DNA of 49,398 nucleotides, taken from assembly GCA_905480575.1 (NCBI GenBank), contig CAJQQZ010000095.1:1-49398 (forward strand), in the 5' to 3' direction. This document shows, piece by piece, positions 23,776-41,770 of the stretch (positions are counted from its first letter, which is position 1; the number at the start of each line of letters is the position of its first letter). Under the pieces are notes generated by a model. It was not told where the DNA came from and did not search any database. It saw only the letters and a list, made by a program, of their open reading frames with translations. Both the position numbers and the translations under genes were made by a program. The DNA is from an uncultured Alphaproteobacteria bacterium (GTDB lineage Bacteria > Pseudomonadota > Alphaproteobacteria > UBA7985 > CAJQQZ01).

Positions 23776-23844
23776 TCCGCTTTGTTTCGCTTTTTACAAT
23801 AAAGCCAGTTATAGCTCTTCTCGATAACCAGTAAAGGGACTGCC

Positions 23845-24333
23845 GTGAGCCGTTTAGACAGCTTCATCCGCCGTATGCAGGCGCAAAGAGAAATCCTAAA
23901 CCAGACCGCTGCTGCAATCGCAGATTTGCCTGGACCAGTTCTTGAGATAGGACTGGGTAACGGGCGTACTTATGATCATTTAAGAGAGATCTTGCCGACA
24001 CGAGAAATCTTTGTATTTGATCGTGCAGTAAATGCTCATCCGAGCTGTATTCCCGAAGACAAATATCTGTTGTTGGGGGAAGTTGAAGAAACTCTTGGTA
24101 ACTGTGACGATCGTATTCCGGAACTCGCAACGCTTGTTCATAGTGATATCGGTCTTGGTGATCCAGAAGGAAATATCGAGATTGGCCGTTGGCTTTCGCC
24201 CCTCATAGACAAGCGTACGGCTAGCGGTGGTATCGTTGTGTGTAATCTTGAGCTAACTCTTTCGGGCTATAAGGACCTTCCATTGCCAGAAGGTATTCGA
24301 CCAGGTCGCTATTTCGTCTATCAAAAGCCATAA
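23845..24333 (+). CDS. Small class I SAM-dependent methyltransferase-like protein
   Basis: A 162-residue protein with a class I SAM-binding start, PGPVLEIGLGNGRTYDHLREILP (motif I), and the acid of motif II in IFVFDRAV. It resembles the short Methyltransf_17 group. The C-terminal half is short and has no clear substrate-recognition domain, so the target is unknown. The start is a GTG at 23845 with AAAGGGA upstream. It ends just before a strong hairpin shared with the opposing His-rich gene. Confidence 0.72.
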   Translation: MSRLDSFIRRMQAQREILNQTAAAIADLPGPVLEIGLGNGRTYDHLREILPTREIFVFDRAVNAHPSCIPEDKYLLLGEVEETLGNCDDRIPELATLVHSDIGLGDPEGNIEIGRWLSPLIDKRTASGGIVVCNLELTLSGYKDLPLPEGIRPGRYFVYQKP

Positions 24334-24340
24334 CGTAGAG

Positions 24341-24377
24341 CCAAAAAGCCCTGTTAGATTGGGCTCTAACAGGGCTT
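24341..24377 (-). terminator. Bidirectional intrinsic terminator
   Basis: AAGCCCTGTTAG (24346-24357) and CTAACAGGGCTT (24366-24377) make a perfect 12-bp stem with an 8-nt loop. On the minus strand it is followed by a T run (five T, 24343-24347 read in reverse), so it is a good terminator for the LTxxQ gene. It also lies 12 nt after the methyltransferase stop. Confidence 0.85.
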
Positions 24378-24406
24378 GAGATTGCCGATTAATCAAGAGG
24401 AAGCGT

Positions 24407-24964
24407 TTAGTCCTCTTTGTATTCGCTCCGTTCTGAATGGTCGTCGTCGTCATTGTGCCAGCGACGATGTTTACCCCAACGTTTACCTTTCATATGACGG
24501 CGAAGTTCCTTGATGGCTGCTTTCTGATCGTCAGTTAGAACAGCTTCAAACGCTTCTGTTGCTGGGCGTAGACGTTGAATGTTTTCCAATTTTATCGTCA
24601 GGACTTTTTCACGTTTTGCTAATTTCGCAGACATTGATTTGGGACGGCCTTCGGCTTTGAGGTCTGCGCACAGTGCCAAAATTGCTTCCGCATTGGATTG
24701 ACGAACAGACTTCAATGTTTCCCATTCGTCTTTTTGGTTCTCTTCTATGCCGATGTAGCGCGCAACAAGAGCATTGCGACCTTCCATTCGTTCCAAGCGA
24801 TCAGGATTGCACATGCGGCGCATTTCACCTTTACCGCCATGCTTACCACCCTGATGCCCCCAGCCATGTTTGCCCCAGTTGTGACCACTGCCTGCATGGG
24901 CGACTAAAGCGAGGGGGACAATGACCGCAACAGCGCCCAATCCATAAATCCATTTCATTTTCAT
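24407..24964 (-). CDS. His-rich LTxxQ-motif (Spy/CpxP-like) periplasmic protein
   Basis: A 185-residue protein with a signal peptide (LGAVAVIVPLALVAHA, cleavage before GSGHNW). The mature N-terminus is rich in His, Gly and Lys (HNWGKHGWGHQGGKHGG), the helical middle carries the LTDDQ motif near residue 143, and the tail has further His and an acidic run (RWHNDDDDHSE). Spy/CpxP proteins are periplasmic chaperones or adaptors, some metal-linked. The His-rich ends suggest metal binding. It is divergent from an OmpR-type response regulator and kinase, much as cpxP is from cpxRA, so it is a likely target of that system. Confidence 0.78.
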   Translation of the reverse strand: MKMKWIYGLGAVAVIVPLALVAHAGSGHNWGKHGWGHQGGKHGGKGEMRRMCNPDRLERMEGRNALVARYIGIEENQKDEWETLKSVRQSNAEAILALCADLKAEGRPKSMSAKLAKREKVLTIKLENIQRLRPATEAFEAVLTDDQKAAIKELRRHMKGKRWGKHRRWHNDDDDHSERSEYKED

Positions 24965-25124
24965 GTTCCTGAGTCCTTTCGTTGTTTGATGATTGTAAGA
25001 TAGGGCCGAAGTGTTTCGCGTGCTTTTCGGATCGCGGGTGGTTTGTTTCTGATTGTAACAAACTTCATGACAAACCCATGGCAGCTCTTTATATGATGGA
25101 AAGAAGTTCGCTACCTTTCAGCTC
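24965..25124. promoter_or_regulatory. Divergent regulatory region between the His-rich gene and the two-component system
   Basis: The octamer GATTGTAA occurs twice, at 24991 and 25051, exactly 60 bp apart. A plausible promoter for the response regulator is ATGACA at 25067-25072, a 17-bp spacer and TATATG at 25090-25095. These could be regulator sites for autoregulation; this is unproven. Confidence 0.35.
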
Positions 25125-25856
25125 ATGAACAACAAACCTTCAAACTTGCTAATTGTCGACGACGACGTTGAGATTAGGCAGCTGCTAAGCGATTATCTGT
25201 CAAAGGAAGAATTCGTTACTCACCAGGCATCTGGGGGTGTCGAAATGCGCGAAGTATTAGCGATGAACAAGATCGACCTGATCCTGTTGGATTTAATGAT
25301 GCCCGTCGAAGACGGCATTGCGATCACACGTTGGTTACGATCAAACCCAGAGACTGCTGACTTACCCATCATCATGGTCACGGCCAAAGGCGACGATATA
25401 GATCGCATCATTGGATTGGAAATCGGGGCAGATGATTACGTTTCTAAGCCTTTCAATCCTCGAGAGTTAAAAGCACGTATTGCAGCAGTTCTCAGAAGGA
25501 CGTCCCTGGCTGTTCGATCAGAAGATTCAACTGAACAACGCGTGCTCGGTTTTGAAGATTGGCGGTTGGACTTGAAAACTTGTCAGCTACGTACAGCCGA
25601 AGGGACTGAGGTTTCACTTACAGCAGGAGAGTTTGATCTCCTACATGCTTTAGCTGAGAACGCACAAAAGATCATGAGCCGCGACCGTCTGTTGAGTCTA
25701 ACGCAAGGACGACAGGCTGAGGCGTTCGATCGTTCTATCGACATTCTCGTGTCTCGGGTTCGTAGTAAATTGGGAGACGACCCGAAAGAACCTTCACTTA
25801 TCCGAACGGTGAGGGGCGCGGGCTATATCCTTTCCAGCCCCGTCAGGAGACTGTGA
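25125..25856 (+). CDS. OmpR/PhoB-family response regulator
   Basis: A 243-residue two-domain regulator. The receiver has the acidic pocket (LLIVDDDVEIRQLL), phospho-acceptor Asp in LILLDLMMPVEDG near residue 55, Thr in IIMVTAKG and Lys in YVSKPFNPREL. The DNA-binding winged helix includes LTAGEFDLLHALAENAQKIMSRDRLL and SIDILVSRVRSKLGDDPKEPSLIRTVRGAGYIL. It is followed by a histidine kinase whose ATG overlaps its stop. The nearest candidate target is the divergent His-rich gene. Confidence 0.93.
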   Translation: MNNKPSNLLIVDDDVEIRQLLSDYLSKEEFVTHQASGGVEMREVLAMNKIDLILLDLMMPVEDGIAITRWLRSNPETADLPIIMVTAKGDDIDRIIGLEIGADDYVSKPFNPRELKARIAAVLRRTSLAVRSEDSTEQRVLGFEDWRLDLKTCQLRTAEGTEVSLTAGEFDLLHALAENAQKIMSRDRLLSLTQGRQAEAFDRSIDILVSRVRSKLGDDPKEPSLIRTVRGAGYILSSPVRRL

Positions 25857-27247
25857 TGCTGAAATGGCGCCCAGGTTTAACCGCCAGATCGGTCCTCATA
25901 CTGCTTGCAACTGTATTGGTTCTACAGATCATCTGGGCTGTTGTGTTTGTGGCTGGGCGATTACATGTACAAAAGAACAACAGCATTGGCCACATACTCA
26001 GAGAAGTCAGTAAAACTGCCAGCGATATTTTTGGCCATGACGCTCATGAGGCAGAAGAAGAGGCTGCTGAACATTCCAATTATTTCATCAACTACCAATA
26101 CTTTGGCCCCGATCAGGAACCAAAGATCGGCTGGGTGAATCCGCACCTGAGTAAAAGCATGAAGCGTATGCTAGACAGGAGAAACCAGGTTTCAGGTCTT
26201 GATCAGGTTCAGGTGAACACTCGAAAGGGAGATGAACGGTTTTTCCAGCCTGGTTTTCATTTTCCACACGGACCTAGAGCACGATTATCACGCGCATTAA
26301 GCGTTGCTTCTCAACTGAATGTGCTTCTGATTCTAGATGATGGGCGTAAATTGGTTGTTGAGATCAAACCACGCAGAGGTTTTTACGGCGTCGGTGGACT
26401 GGTTTTTATGCTCATTTTTTCAGTAGCAGTCCTCACTCTTGTGGCACTTTGGGTGGTCCGCAGAGTAACTAAACCACTGATGTCTTTCGCTGAAGCAGCC
26501 ACGGCCTTGGGGGAAAACATCAATCAAAAACCGCTGGAGAAATCAGGGATTAAAGAAATCGACACAACAGTTGACGCCTTTAACTCTATGCAGACGTCCG
26601 TGAAAGAGCTGTTGGATTCCAGAACCTTGATGATTGGAGCTATGAGCCACGACGTTAGAACTCTGCTAACACGCCTGAGGTTGCGAACCGAATTCATCGA
26701 CGATGAGAAACAGCGCACTAAAGCAGAGAGCGATATCATTGAGATGGAGCAAATACTAAGTTCCAGCTTGGAATTTTCTGCCTCTAGTGATTTTGGTCTT
26801 AACAACGATAATTCAGAACTGTTAGATTTGGTGCCAATGTTGACGGTCCTTTGTGACGACTTAGCCGAAAATGGAAAGATAGTGGAAGTCGACGTACCTC
26901 TAGGGCAGACTTTTGTTGTTCAAGGCGACGCCATGTTGCTGAAACGAGTATTTGAGAACTTGCTTAACAACGCGCTTAAATTTGGGAGTAGGGCCAAACT
27001 ATCAATCGCGCACAATCACATTGTTGTAGAAGACGACGGCCCAGGTATTGCGGCCGATGAACAGGAAAAGGTCTTCCGGCCATACTATAGAGTTGAAGCG
27101 TCCAGAAATCGCGAAACGGGTGGCACTGGATTAGGGCTGGCGATTGCTCAAAATATCATTCATGGCCACGGCGGTACAATTGAACTGGGGCGGAGCCAAC
27201 TTGGCGGCTTGAAAGTCACAGTAAGCCTACCTCAGAAAGGGTCATAG
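25856..27247 (+). CDS. Membrane sensor histidine kinase with His-rich periplasmic domain
   Basis: A 463-residue kinase: first span near residues 12-34, a periplasmic domain of about 140 residues, second span near 180-202, HAMP region (VVRRVTKPLMSFAEAATAL), H-box around His265, N-box ENLLNNALKFG, and G-boxes VVEDDGPGIAADEQEKVF and GGTGLGLAI. The H-box reads SHDVRTLLTRLRL: the nearly invariant Pro five residues after His is Leu (codon CTG at 26663-26665). The periplasmic part contains clustered His and acids (GHDAHEAEEEAAEH and FHFPHGP), consistent with metal sensing. Its ATG overlaps the regulator stop by one base. The 3' end overlaps a convergent SDR gene by 16 bp. Confidence 0.88.
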   Translation: MLKWRPGLTARSVLILLATVLVLQIIWAVVFVAGRLHVQKNNSIGHILREVSKTASDIFGHDAHEAEEEAAEHSNYFINYQYFGPDQEPKIGWVNPHLSKSMKRMLDRRNQVSGLDQVQVNTRKGDERFFQPGFHFPHGPRARLSRALSVASQLNVLLILDDGRKLVVEIKPRRGFYGVGGLVFMLIFSVAVLTLVALWVVRRVTKPLMSFAEAATALGENINQKPLEKSGIKEIDTTVDAFNSMQTSVKELLDSRTLMIGAMSHDVRTLLTRLRLRTEFIDDEKQRTKAESDIIEMEQILSSSLEFSASSDFGLNNDNSELLDLVPMLTVLCDDLAENGKIVEVDVPLGQTFVVQGDAMLLKRVFENLLNNALKFGSRAKLSIAHNHIVVEDDGPGIAADEQEKVFRPYYRVEASRNRETGGTGLGLAIAQNIIHGHGGTIELGRSQLGGLKVTVSLPQKGS

Positions 27248-28005
27248 ATACCTTCTGTGTGGCCATCTACAGATATGATCTGTCCGGAAACCAACTTGGC
27301 CTCTGGCGTTGCCAGAAAGACGATCATGTTGGCGATATCCTCGGCTTTGACAAACTGCCGCATAGAGGCTTGCTTGGCGTAGGCTCCTCTGACTTTGTCT
27401 TCGCTCATGTCCCTTGATTTCGCCTCTGCTGCGATAACCCTATCCATGCGCTCACCATCGACCGCCCCCGGACAAATCGCATTTGCGCGGATGCCATGCG
27501 ACCCTAGTTCCATAGCCAGAGATTTGGTAAGACCGATGATCGCCCATTTGGCGCTGCAATAGGGGGTTCTGAGTGGATAACCGTAAAGGCCCGCTGTGGA
27601 TGACAGATTGACAATCACACCTGAGCTCTGTTGCTTGAAATGGGGGATAACTTCTTTCGAATGAAGAAAGGCCGACACTAGATTGGCGTCGATACAATCG
27701 CGCCAGGCCTGGGCTTCCATTTCCTCAATTGGCCCAGTAGGTCCAGCCGTCCCTGCGTTGTTAACCAAAACATCAACACCCCCAAGGAGATCAGCGGCGC
27801 GTTTGACAAAATCCTTAACCTGAACTTCATCTGTGACATTGGCCTCAATGGCTGTGATGGATGTTTCATTCTCGTTACAAGCGTTAACAGCCTCTTCATT
27901 TATGTCAGAGACAACAACCTTTGCGCCTTTGGCAGCAAACGCCGCTGCTGTTGATGCGCCGATGCCACTTGCACCCGCTGTGATGATTACCTTCAGCCCG
28001 TTCAT
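27232..28005 (-). CDS. SDR-family oxidoreductase
   Basis: About 257 residues with TAGASGIGAST cofactor motif, DINEEAV (acid after beta 2, favouring NAD), VNNAGTAG, LSSTAGLYGYPLRTPYCSAKWA with catalytic Ser, Tyr and Lys, and LVSGQIISVDGH near the end. The C-terminal EGIYDPF resembles 3-ketoacyl or hydroxyacyl-type SDRs. The ATG at 28005 was chosen over a GTG five codons upstream. Convergent and overlapping with the kinase gene. Substrate unknown. Confidence 0.83.
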   Translation of the reverse strand: MNGLKVIITAGASGIGASTAAAFAAKGAKVVVSDINEEAVNACNENETSITAIEANVTDEVQVKDFVKRAADLLGGVDVLVNNAGTAGPTGPIEEMEAQAWRDCIDANLVSAFLHSKEVIPHFKQQSSGVIVNLSSTAGLYGYPLRTPYCSAKWAIIGLTKSLAMELGSHGIRANAICPGAVDGERMDRVIAAEAKSRDMSEDKVRGAYAKQASMRQFVKAEDIANMIVFLATPEAKLVSGQIISVDGHTEGIYDPF

Positions 28006-28134
28006 TCTTACTGCCCACACATTAAAATCCGCCTTTTAAACCCGCTAACCAAGAAAAACGAAAGAGTCTATTGGTAATTGGATCGAGAATCACTAAATAT
28101 GCATCAATGTGTAAGTAAATAAGAGGACACCATA

Positions 28135-29046
28135 GTGGCGAGAGATCCCTATGCGGTGCTCGGCGTTGCAAAGAACGCCAGTGATCAAGAGATAAGAAAA
28201 GCCTATCGTAACCTCGCAAAGTCCTATCATCCAGACACCAACCCTGGAGACACGGCAGCAGAGAACAAGTTCAAAGAAGCGGGGAACGCTTATGAAATCT
28301 TGTCAGACAAAGAGAAGCGCGCGGCATACGACCAAGGTATGATAGATGCCGACGGCAATCAAAAGGCCCATAATCCTTTTGGTGGCGGCGGCTTTGGCGG
28401 TGGTCAAGGTGGCAATCCTTTTGGCGGCTTTGACGGCATGGGTTCGGTCTTCGAAGATCTCTTCAACGGAGGAAGAGGGCGCTCAAGACAACATCAACCA
28501 GCGAAGGGCCAGGATGTAAAAAGCAAATTGACCGTTTCATTTATTGAAGCGGCAAAAGGCGCAAAGAAAGCCATCTCTTTACCATCGGGCAGTGATGTGA
28601 ATTTATCCATTCCCGCTGGCTCAAAGCCCGGCGACACGCTCCGGCTAAAAGGCAAGGGACATCCAAGCCCGATGGGTGGGGCGACTGGAGATCTCCATGT
28701 TGAATTGGTTGTGAGAGACCATCAATTCTTCAAGTTGGAGAATGATAATCTTGTTTTGGATTTGCCAATTACTTTGAAAGAAGCCGTTCTTGGCGGGAAA
28801 GTCGATGTTCCGACGCTCGATGGCAAAATTCGCCTTTCCATTGCCCCTAATACGTCCAGCGGTAAAGTTTATCGCCTTAAAGGCAAGGGCATCAAGAAAA
28901 CAACGAAATCTACGGAAGGCGATTTGCTCATCCGTGTGTCGATCAGTCTTCCTGGTGAACCTGACGAGAAATTAGCTTCATTGATTGAATCTTGGGATGA
29001 CACAAAGGCAGTTGACCCAAGAGAGAAACTACTGGCTTCGGTCTAA
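28135..29046 (+). CDS. DnaJ-type co-chaperone without zinc finger (CbpA/class B)
   Basis: A 303-residue J-protein: J-domain at residues 3-68 with HPD at 32-34, a Gly/Phe-rich linker ([14 protein letters not shown]), then two DnaJ C-terminal beta domains ([26 protein letters not shown] and [25 protein letters not shown]). No CxxCxGxG zinc finger separates the linker from the C-domains, so it is class B. It would stimulate an Hsp70 ATPase and hand over substrates. The start is a GTG with GAGGA seven bases upstream. Confidence 0.92.
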
Positions 29047-41146: not shown

Positions 41147-41770
41147 ATGCTCGAAATTTTCATTCCAGCCTTTGTGGCAATGTTTGTCACGATGGATCCA
41201 ATCGGTAACGTGCCGATTTTCATCTCATTAACCAGAGAACTCAGTCGCGGCGAGAAACTAAAAACAGCTTTTCGAGCGATTGTAATCGCGGGTGGTTTGC
41301 TGGTTTTGTTTGGTTTCTTTGGCAACTGGCTCCTAGGGAACCTAGGCATTACCATGTCTGCGTTCAAAATAGCAGGTGGAATTCTCCTCTTTATTATCGC
41401 TCTGGAAATGCTGTTTTCAAAACGCACGGAGCGCAAAGCCAATTCAGCCGAAGAAGCCCAACAGCAAAAATCAGGCGATGATTTAGCGGTCTTTCCACTT
41501 GCCATCCCGCTCATCGCTGGTCCCGGATCTATCACGACAGCCATGATTTGGATTGGAAGTGCTAGTGATCCAACAGGCCAGATAATCGCGTTGGTGGCTG
41601 TGGCAGCGGTTCTGGTTGCTTTCGCCATTCTATTTAGCTTGTCTGTGTTCTCAGAACGATTTATCAGCGCTACCGTTGCTAACGTGATAACGCGGTTGCT
41701 GGGAATGTTGTTGGCGGCGCTCGCGACACAATCGATTATTGATGGAATCCAGAAAGTCATTCTGTCATAA
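41147..41770 (+). CDS. MarC-family integral membrane protein
   Basis: A 207-residue protein with about six spans and the MarC signatures FVAMFVTMDPIGNVPIFISLT and AFKIAGGILLFIIALEM, plus PLAIPLIAGPGSITT. The family has no confirmed transport substrate; earlier links to multiple antibiotic resistance were withdrawn for E. coli MarC. Follows the NmrA-like gene closely and precedes moxR by 36 bp. Confidence 0.88.
   Translation: MLEIFIPAFVAMFVTMDPIGNVPIFISLTRELSRGEKLKTAFRAIVIAGGLLVLFGFFGNWLLGNLGITMSAFKIAGGILLFIIALEMLFSKRTERKANSAEEAQQQKSGDDLAVFPLAIPLIAGPGSITTAMIWIGSASDPTGQIIALVAVAAVLVAFAILFSLSVFSERFISATVANVITRLLGMLLAALATQSIIDGIQKVILS

Follow-up and report, generated by a model that had tools for sequence, protein, structure and literature searches.

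The exported LTXXQ (Spy/CpxP-family) protein and the divergent response regulator-sensor kinase operon described here probably form a local, self-controlled Cpx-like envelope-stress module, in which the LTXXQ protein would serve both as a chaperone and as a feedback brake on the kinase. It resembles the Cpx system of Escherichia coli but has a different regulator lineage and DNA site. The window, i.e., the whole stretch of 49,398 nucleotides that was analysed, corresponds to the entire contig C95 of a 4.03 Mb genome in 189 contigs, and the locus comprises the following features:

24346-24377, minus strand: 13-bp stem-loop, probable bidirectional terminator, between the convergent methyltransferase and LTXXQ genes
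24407-24964, minus strand: exported LTXXQ (Spy/CpxP-family) protein, 185 aa, with Cys52 and Cys99; PF07813, E 6.7e-11, 43.2 bits
24410-24496, minus strand: C-terminal His/Asp-rich tail of the LTXXQ protein (residues 157-185), read from the translation
24830-24898, minus strand: N-terminal Gly/His-rich stretch of the LTXXQ protein (residues 23-45), at and just after the presumed signal-peptide cleavage site
24997-25002, minus strand: TATCTT, probable LTXXQ -10 hexamer (distance to the box, 42 bp)
25045-25059, plus strand: predicted response-regulator box GTTTC-TGATT-GTAAC (GTTTCTGATTGTAAC), a direct repeat GTTTC-N5-GTAAC
25092-25097, plus strand: TATGAT, probable -10 hexamer for the regulator-kinase operon (distance to the box, 32 bp)
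25125-25856, plus strand: OmpR-family response regulator, 243 aa, Response_reg and Trans_reg_C domains
25856-27247, plus strand: EnvZ/CpxA-type sensor kinase, 463 aa, with periplasmic domain, HAMP, HisKA and HATPase
26036-26080, plus strand: HDAHEAEEEAAEHSN, acid/His cluster of the periplasmic domain of the kinase, permutation p 0.0044
26648-26665, plus strand: kinase H-box HDVRTL, with Leu (codon 26663-26665) replacing the usual Pro

All three genes were borne out as real, and the LTXXQ protein scores well above the curated PF07813 cut-off of 24.3 bits. The kinase probably starts at the ATG at 25856, which overlaps the stop codon of the regulator, and not at the GTG at 25853. The stem-loop folds at -23.9 kcal/mol (z -3.87); the terminator scan returned no entry at its position, and an Rfam search of 23800-28200 gave no match. 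A second LTXXQ protein is encoded elsewhere in the same genome (G000:C164:4267-4557, L002), where its gene is divergent from one that, by eye, resembles a Crp/Fnr-type regulator.

The cpxP-cpxRA-like divergent arrangement, already recognized in the initial annotation, recurs outside the window: it is present in 20 other genomes and in a sister species, G001 (CAJQQJ01), a MAG from an uncultured alphaproteobacterium. Gene order in the sister species is identical to that of the window, with identities of 76% for the LTXXQ protein, 81% for the regulator and 63% for the kinase. In a class-wide search of 385 genomes, two LTXXQ profiles gave matches in 26 and 76 genomes, respectively; 21 of the 22 modules lie within this sample, and the count is a lower bound, because the inspection covered 60 regions around LTXXQ matches. 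L163 is counted among the 22 although its kinase falls beyond the limits of the retrieved region. The divergent LTXXQ/regulator-kinase module is common to many alphaproteobacteria; a literature search, thin on subscription papers, retrieved no description of it in this class.

The intergenic region had been singled out for two GATTGTAA octamers 60 bp apart. Both are indeed found, at 24991-24998 and 25051-25058. A third copy occurs at 41278, and since three copies in the window, against 1.64 expected, are reached in 25 of 100 shuffles, the octamer itself is not significant. The first copy, which shares bases with the probable LTXXQ -10, reads GAGTTTAA in the sister species, so it is not conserved. 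Neither conserved nor rare, the octamer was rejected as the regulator site. The second copy sits within a conserved direct repeat, the predicted box, which is kept in the sister species as GTTTCTGAGTGTAAC.

When pairs of GTWWC half-sites with start-to-start distances of 6-20 were searched in the intergenic regions of 16 modules, 14 of them had a pair at distance 10, where order-1 Markov shuffles predict 0.064. Seven regions had distance 18, which accompanies boxes paired 28 bp from each other; 15, 19 and 20 were each seen once, and the remaining distances never. The GTWWC-N5-GTWWC box was also present in all six further modules, bringing the total to 20 of 22, with L065 and L080 lacking a strict box. 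It was absent near the start of LTXXQ genes without a regulator-kinase pair (0/19 tested, 39 fetched) and upstream of regulator paralogues in the window's genome (0/8). The weight of the box comes from its conservation, because the pattern alone is expected to occur 0.88 times by chance in the window.

The position of the box relative to the putative promoters is also recurrent. On the operon side, 12 of 16 modules have a hexamer agreeing with TATAAT in at least four of six bases at 30-34 bp from the box, as compared with 0-3 of 16 in the other five-base offset windows readable in all of them; in the sister species no good operon -10 was found at 30-34 bp. The LTXXQ direction is weaker, with a -10 match of at least 4/6 at 40-44 bp in 6 of 15 modules; TATCTT itself is conserved in the sister species. 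A single box serves both -10 distances in the window, 32 and 42 bp. The earlier proposal that the regulator has a site in the intergenic region is therefore supported computationally, through the conserved repeat and its spacing from the operon -10, which make the box a likely candidate.

The same pattern occurs 85 times in the window's genome, versus 300 times for a reversed-pattern control. Forty regions around matches were chosen by hand and opened; in nine of them an intergenic site other than that of the window was present, and none of the nine has a -10 of at least 5/6 at the module spacings. This limited, hand-picked inspection gave no support to a wide regulon and revealed no convincing second target; thus, the regulon looks local, although weak distal targets are possible since the pattern is loose. 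Sixteen of the 85 matches are copies of one repeat that breaks the assembly, GTATCAAGCAGTTTC; most lie some 100 bases from the end of a contig (e.g., C1:103-117, C18:101-115, C35:102-116).

The regulator retains the receiver Asp, Thr and Lys, as read from its translation. Its best score was obtained with the OmpR equivalog model (254.7 bits), below the cut-off of 331; the CpxR model gave 170.3 bits against a cut-off of 341. A first tree united the module regulators (support 76/84), and a larger one, with more relatives, again placed them together (98/96), apart from both OmpR and CpxR; this group includes also regulator-kinase pairs that lack an LTXXQ neighbor, so that the module label does not define one clade. 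The regulators of the window and of the sister species are sister to those of the f2 order-mates (98/98). Taken together, the sequence comparisons group the regulator with OmpR rather than with CpxR, which makes the module a likely Cpx-like analogue and not a Cpx orthologue. In the f3 order-mates the place opposite the same regulator-kinase pair is taken by another small exported protein, which carries an ATRYGEI motif (L195, 3487-3918, minus strand; L200, 3843-4190, minus strand; L202, 5329-5760, plus strand), whose L195 and L200 copies have no Pfam match. Three f3 loci (L005-L007) carry a GTTTCAGTTTGTTTC box at the regulator.

The kinase is closest to the EnvZ equivalog model (185.2 bits), below its cut-off of 415, and scores 174 bits with the CpxA model (cut-off 486); its core resembles CpxA, the best PDB match. 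The N, G1, F and G2 boxes can be read in the translation. The H-box string is HDVRTLLT, with Leu after Thr where proline is usual. This proline is missing in 15 of the 21 readable module kinases, whereas it is present in 21 of 24 distinct non-module H-box strings, and of the three strings without it, two come from the regulator-kinase lineage to which the modules belong. In VicK, P222A abolished phosphatase activity and P222G did not (PMC3582566). The kinase of the sister species (L064, 881-2272, minus strand) carries HN rather than HD at its phospho-histidine, which may reflect a kinase-impaired state or an error in the MAG.

The module shares with Escherichia coli CpxP/CpxR-CpxA the LTXXQ gene divergent from the regulator-kinase operon and the pairing of half-sites at spacing 10. 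The Cpx box is given as GTAAA-N5-GTAAA (PMC2912261); the module half-sites are instead GTAAC, GTTTC or GTTAC, and GTAAA-N5-GTAAA is not matched. Further differences from E. coli are the Cys pair of the LTXXQ protein, the prevalent loss of the H-box Pro, the lack of a visible wider regulon and the grouping of the regulator with OmpR. The module would thus work like Cpx but falls outside CpxR, CpxA and the Cpx box in the respective membership tests.

Related arrangements have been described in other bacteria. In Sinorhizobium meliloti, loss of tolC is reported to raise the expression of SMb21562-21560 by factors of 69, 27 and 14 (PMC2912261). A collinear LTXXQ/regulator/kinase locus on pSymB, which fits the description of SMb21562-SMb21561-SMb21560 and is probably the same, resembles the module in joining an LTXXQ protein to a regulator and kinase in an alphaproteobacterium; it is related but distinct, since the LTXXQ protein of this locus lacks Cys, the box there is GTAAAGAAATGTAAA, a perfect GTAAA-N5-GTAAA, and its regulator falls outside the module group. 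In Pseudomonas aeruginosa the LTXXQ gene cpxP likewise adjoins the gene of an OmpR-family regulator, CpxR, which activates it (PMC5063474, PMC10648845); there, however, the genes are co-oriented, with cpxP between cpxR and cpxS, the half-sites are GTAAA and the system drives efflux pumps.

The gene set, its recurrence, the repeat and the operon -10 spacing are all computed observations, as is the failure to find another convincing site in the genome; DNA binding and activation by the regulator, a restraining effect of the LTXXQ protein on the kinase, and the nature of the signal are inferred. Upon envelope stress, the kinase would phosphorylate the regulator; this would bind the single GTTTC-N5-GTAAC repeat that the two divergent promoters share, midway between the genes, and turn both promoters on. 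The exported LTXXQ protein may then act, by analogy with CpxP, as a periplasmic chaperone and as a feedback brake on the kinase. General envelope damage is the most likely signal, and cations may tune it by way of the acid/His tracts.

Periplasmic LTXXQ-like helical proteins bearing His residues are tied to signalling in ZraP-ZraSR and CnrX, and these are precedents for reading the module as a dedicated Zn, Cu or Ni sensor, in which the His-rich LTXXQ protein would buffer the metal and the kinase would bind it directly; the module differs from them in its OmpR-type regulator, and its own link to a metal is hypothetical. Such a function was suggested as a possibility in the initial annotation, on account of clustered His and acidic residues in both proteins. 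Of that observation, the D/E/H cluster of the kinase stands, while His alone is not clustered either in the kinase sensor (p 0.65) or in the mature LTXXQ protein, with 8 His in 161 residues and a densest 20-residue stretch of 4 (permutation p 0.21). The sister species retains the His cluster HGWGH at the N-terminus of the LTXXQ protein, and strongly expanded His/Asp repeats mark both partners in the f2 order-mates (L197-L199): GGHEF or MHDGDE repeats in the LTXXQ protein (L197, 3867-4955, minus strand), and long acid/His tracts (DHDDEDRSDDRED, WENAWEN) with WENA repeats in the kinase sensor. However, the kinase cluster of the sister species reads SDPDETVEEAEEQSN, with no His; no His column is conserved among the sensors of 16 modules; with the heavy-metal two-component models TIGR01386 and TIGR01387, the kinase and the regulator score far below the curated cut-offs (107.6 vs 292.55 and 136.7 vs 279.2 bits, respectively); and no metal genes adjoin the module in the window, the flanks of 12 modules having been inspected by eye only. 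Structural comparison points weakly to NccX (Z 6.1) and CnrX (Z 5.9), values within noise for helical bundles: the models, built from two-row alignments, have mean pLDDT of 63.7 for the LTXXQ protein and 59.4 for the kinase sensor, with low confidence at LTXXQ residues 23-45 and 157-185, and for these low-confidence models VIA-align gave only noise-level Z and Foldseek no match at E <= 0.001, CpxP and Spy being absent among the structure matches listed. A specific metal site is thus not supported, and a dedicated metal sensor appears unlikely. Far less probable is a periplasmic redox or disulfide sensor, in which the Cys pair of the LTXXQ protein would report oxidative folding: the pair is found in 21 of 22 module proteins (L163 lacks it) and is absent from E. 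coli CpxP, but in 14 of 16 modules the sensor domain is devoid of Cys, and the pair may be merely structural, because 12 of 41 non-module LTXXQ rows carry it.

Two other readings concern the relationship between the LTXXQ protein and the kinase. The protein could be only an output, a periplasmic chaperone produced by an OmpR/EnvZ-like system without feedback on the kinase, as would agree with the grouping of the regulator with OmpR and with the f3 loci, where the different exported protein implies that the neighbor is replaceable. Against this, the densest D/E/H 20-mers of the LTXXQ protein and of the kinase sensor covary (rho 0.71, n=24; 0.67 in a thinned set, n=15; partial given GC, 0.65 and 0.55), while those of the LTXXQ protein and of the kinase cytoplasmic part do not (-0.05 and 0.21), which suggests contact; with the regulator the values are 0.36 and 0.28, weak and not significant. 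The 24 rows are 21 of the 22 modules (L163 is left out, its kinase lying beyond the retrieved region) and three f2 loci, and the correlation is inflated by related rows, uses approximate sensor-domain limits and has no other periplasmic proteins as control. On balance, the output-only role seems rather unlikely. The joint expansion of the LTXXQ and sensor tracts, together with the prevalent loss of the H-box Pro, is the ground for placing the off-switch outside the kinase: divalent cations would bridge the LTXXQ protein to the kinase and so keep the latter locked until stress or chelation set it free. We consider this reading improbable; if true, it would describe an adaptor-driven, cation-gated two-component system that replaces the phosphatase activity of the kinase.

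With the Cpx-like module as the preferred interpretation, alphaproteobacteria gain a compact, widespread and testable Cpx counterpart with a defined DNA box, set apart from the sole Cpx-like rhizobial locus found in print here. Moreover, if the loss of the H-box Pro and the covarying tracts mean what is suggested, the module would offer a test of how a two-component system may be shut off without kinase phosphatase activity.
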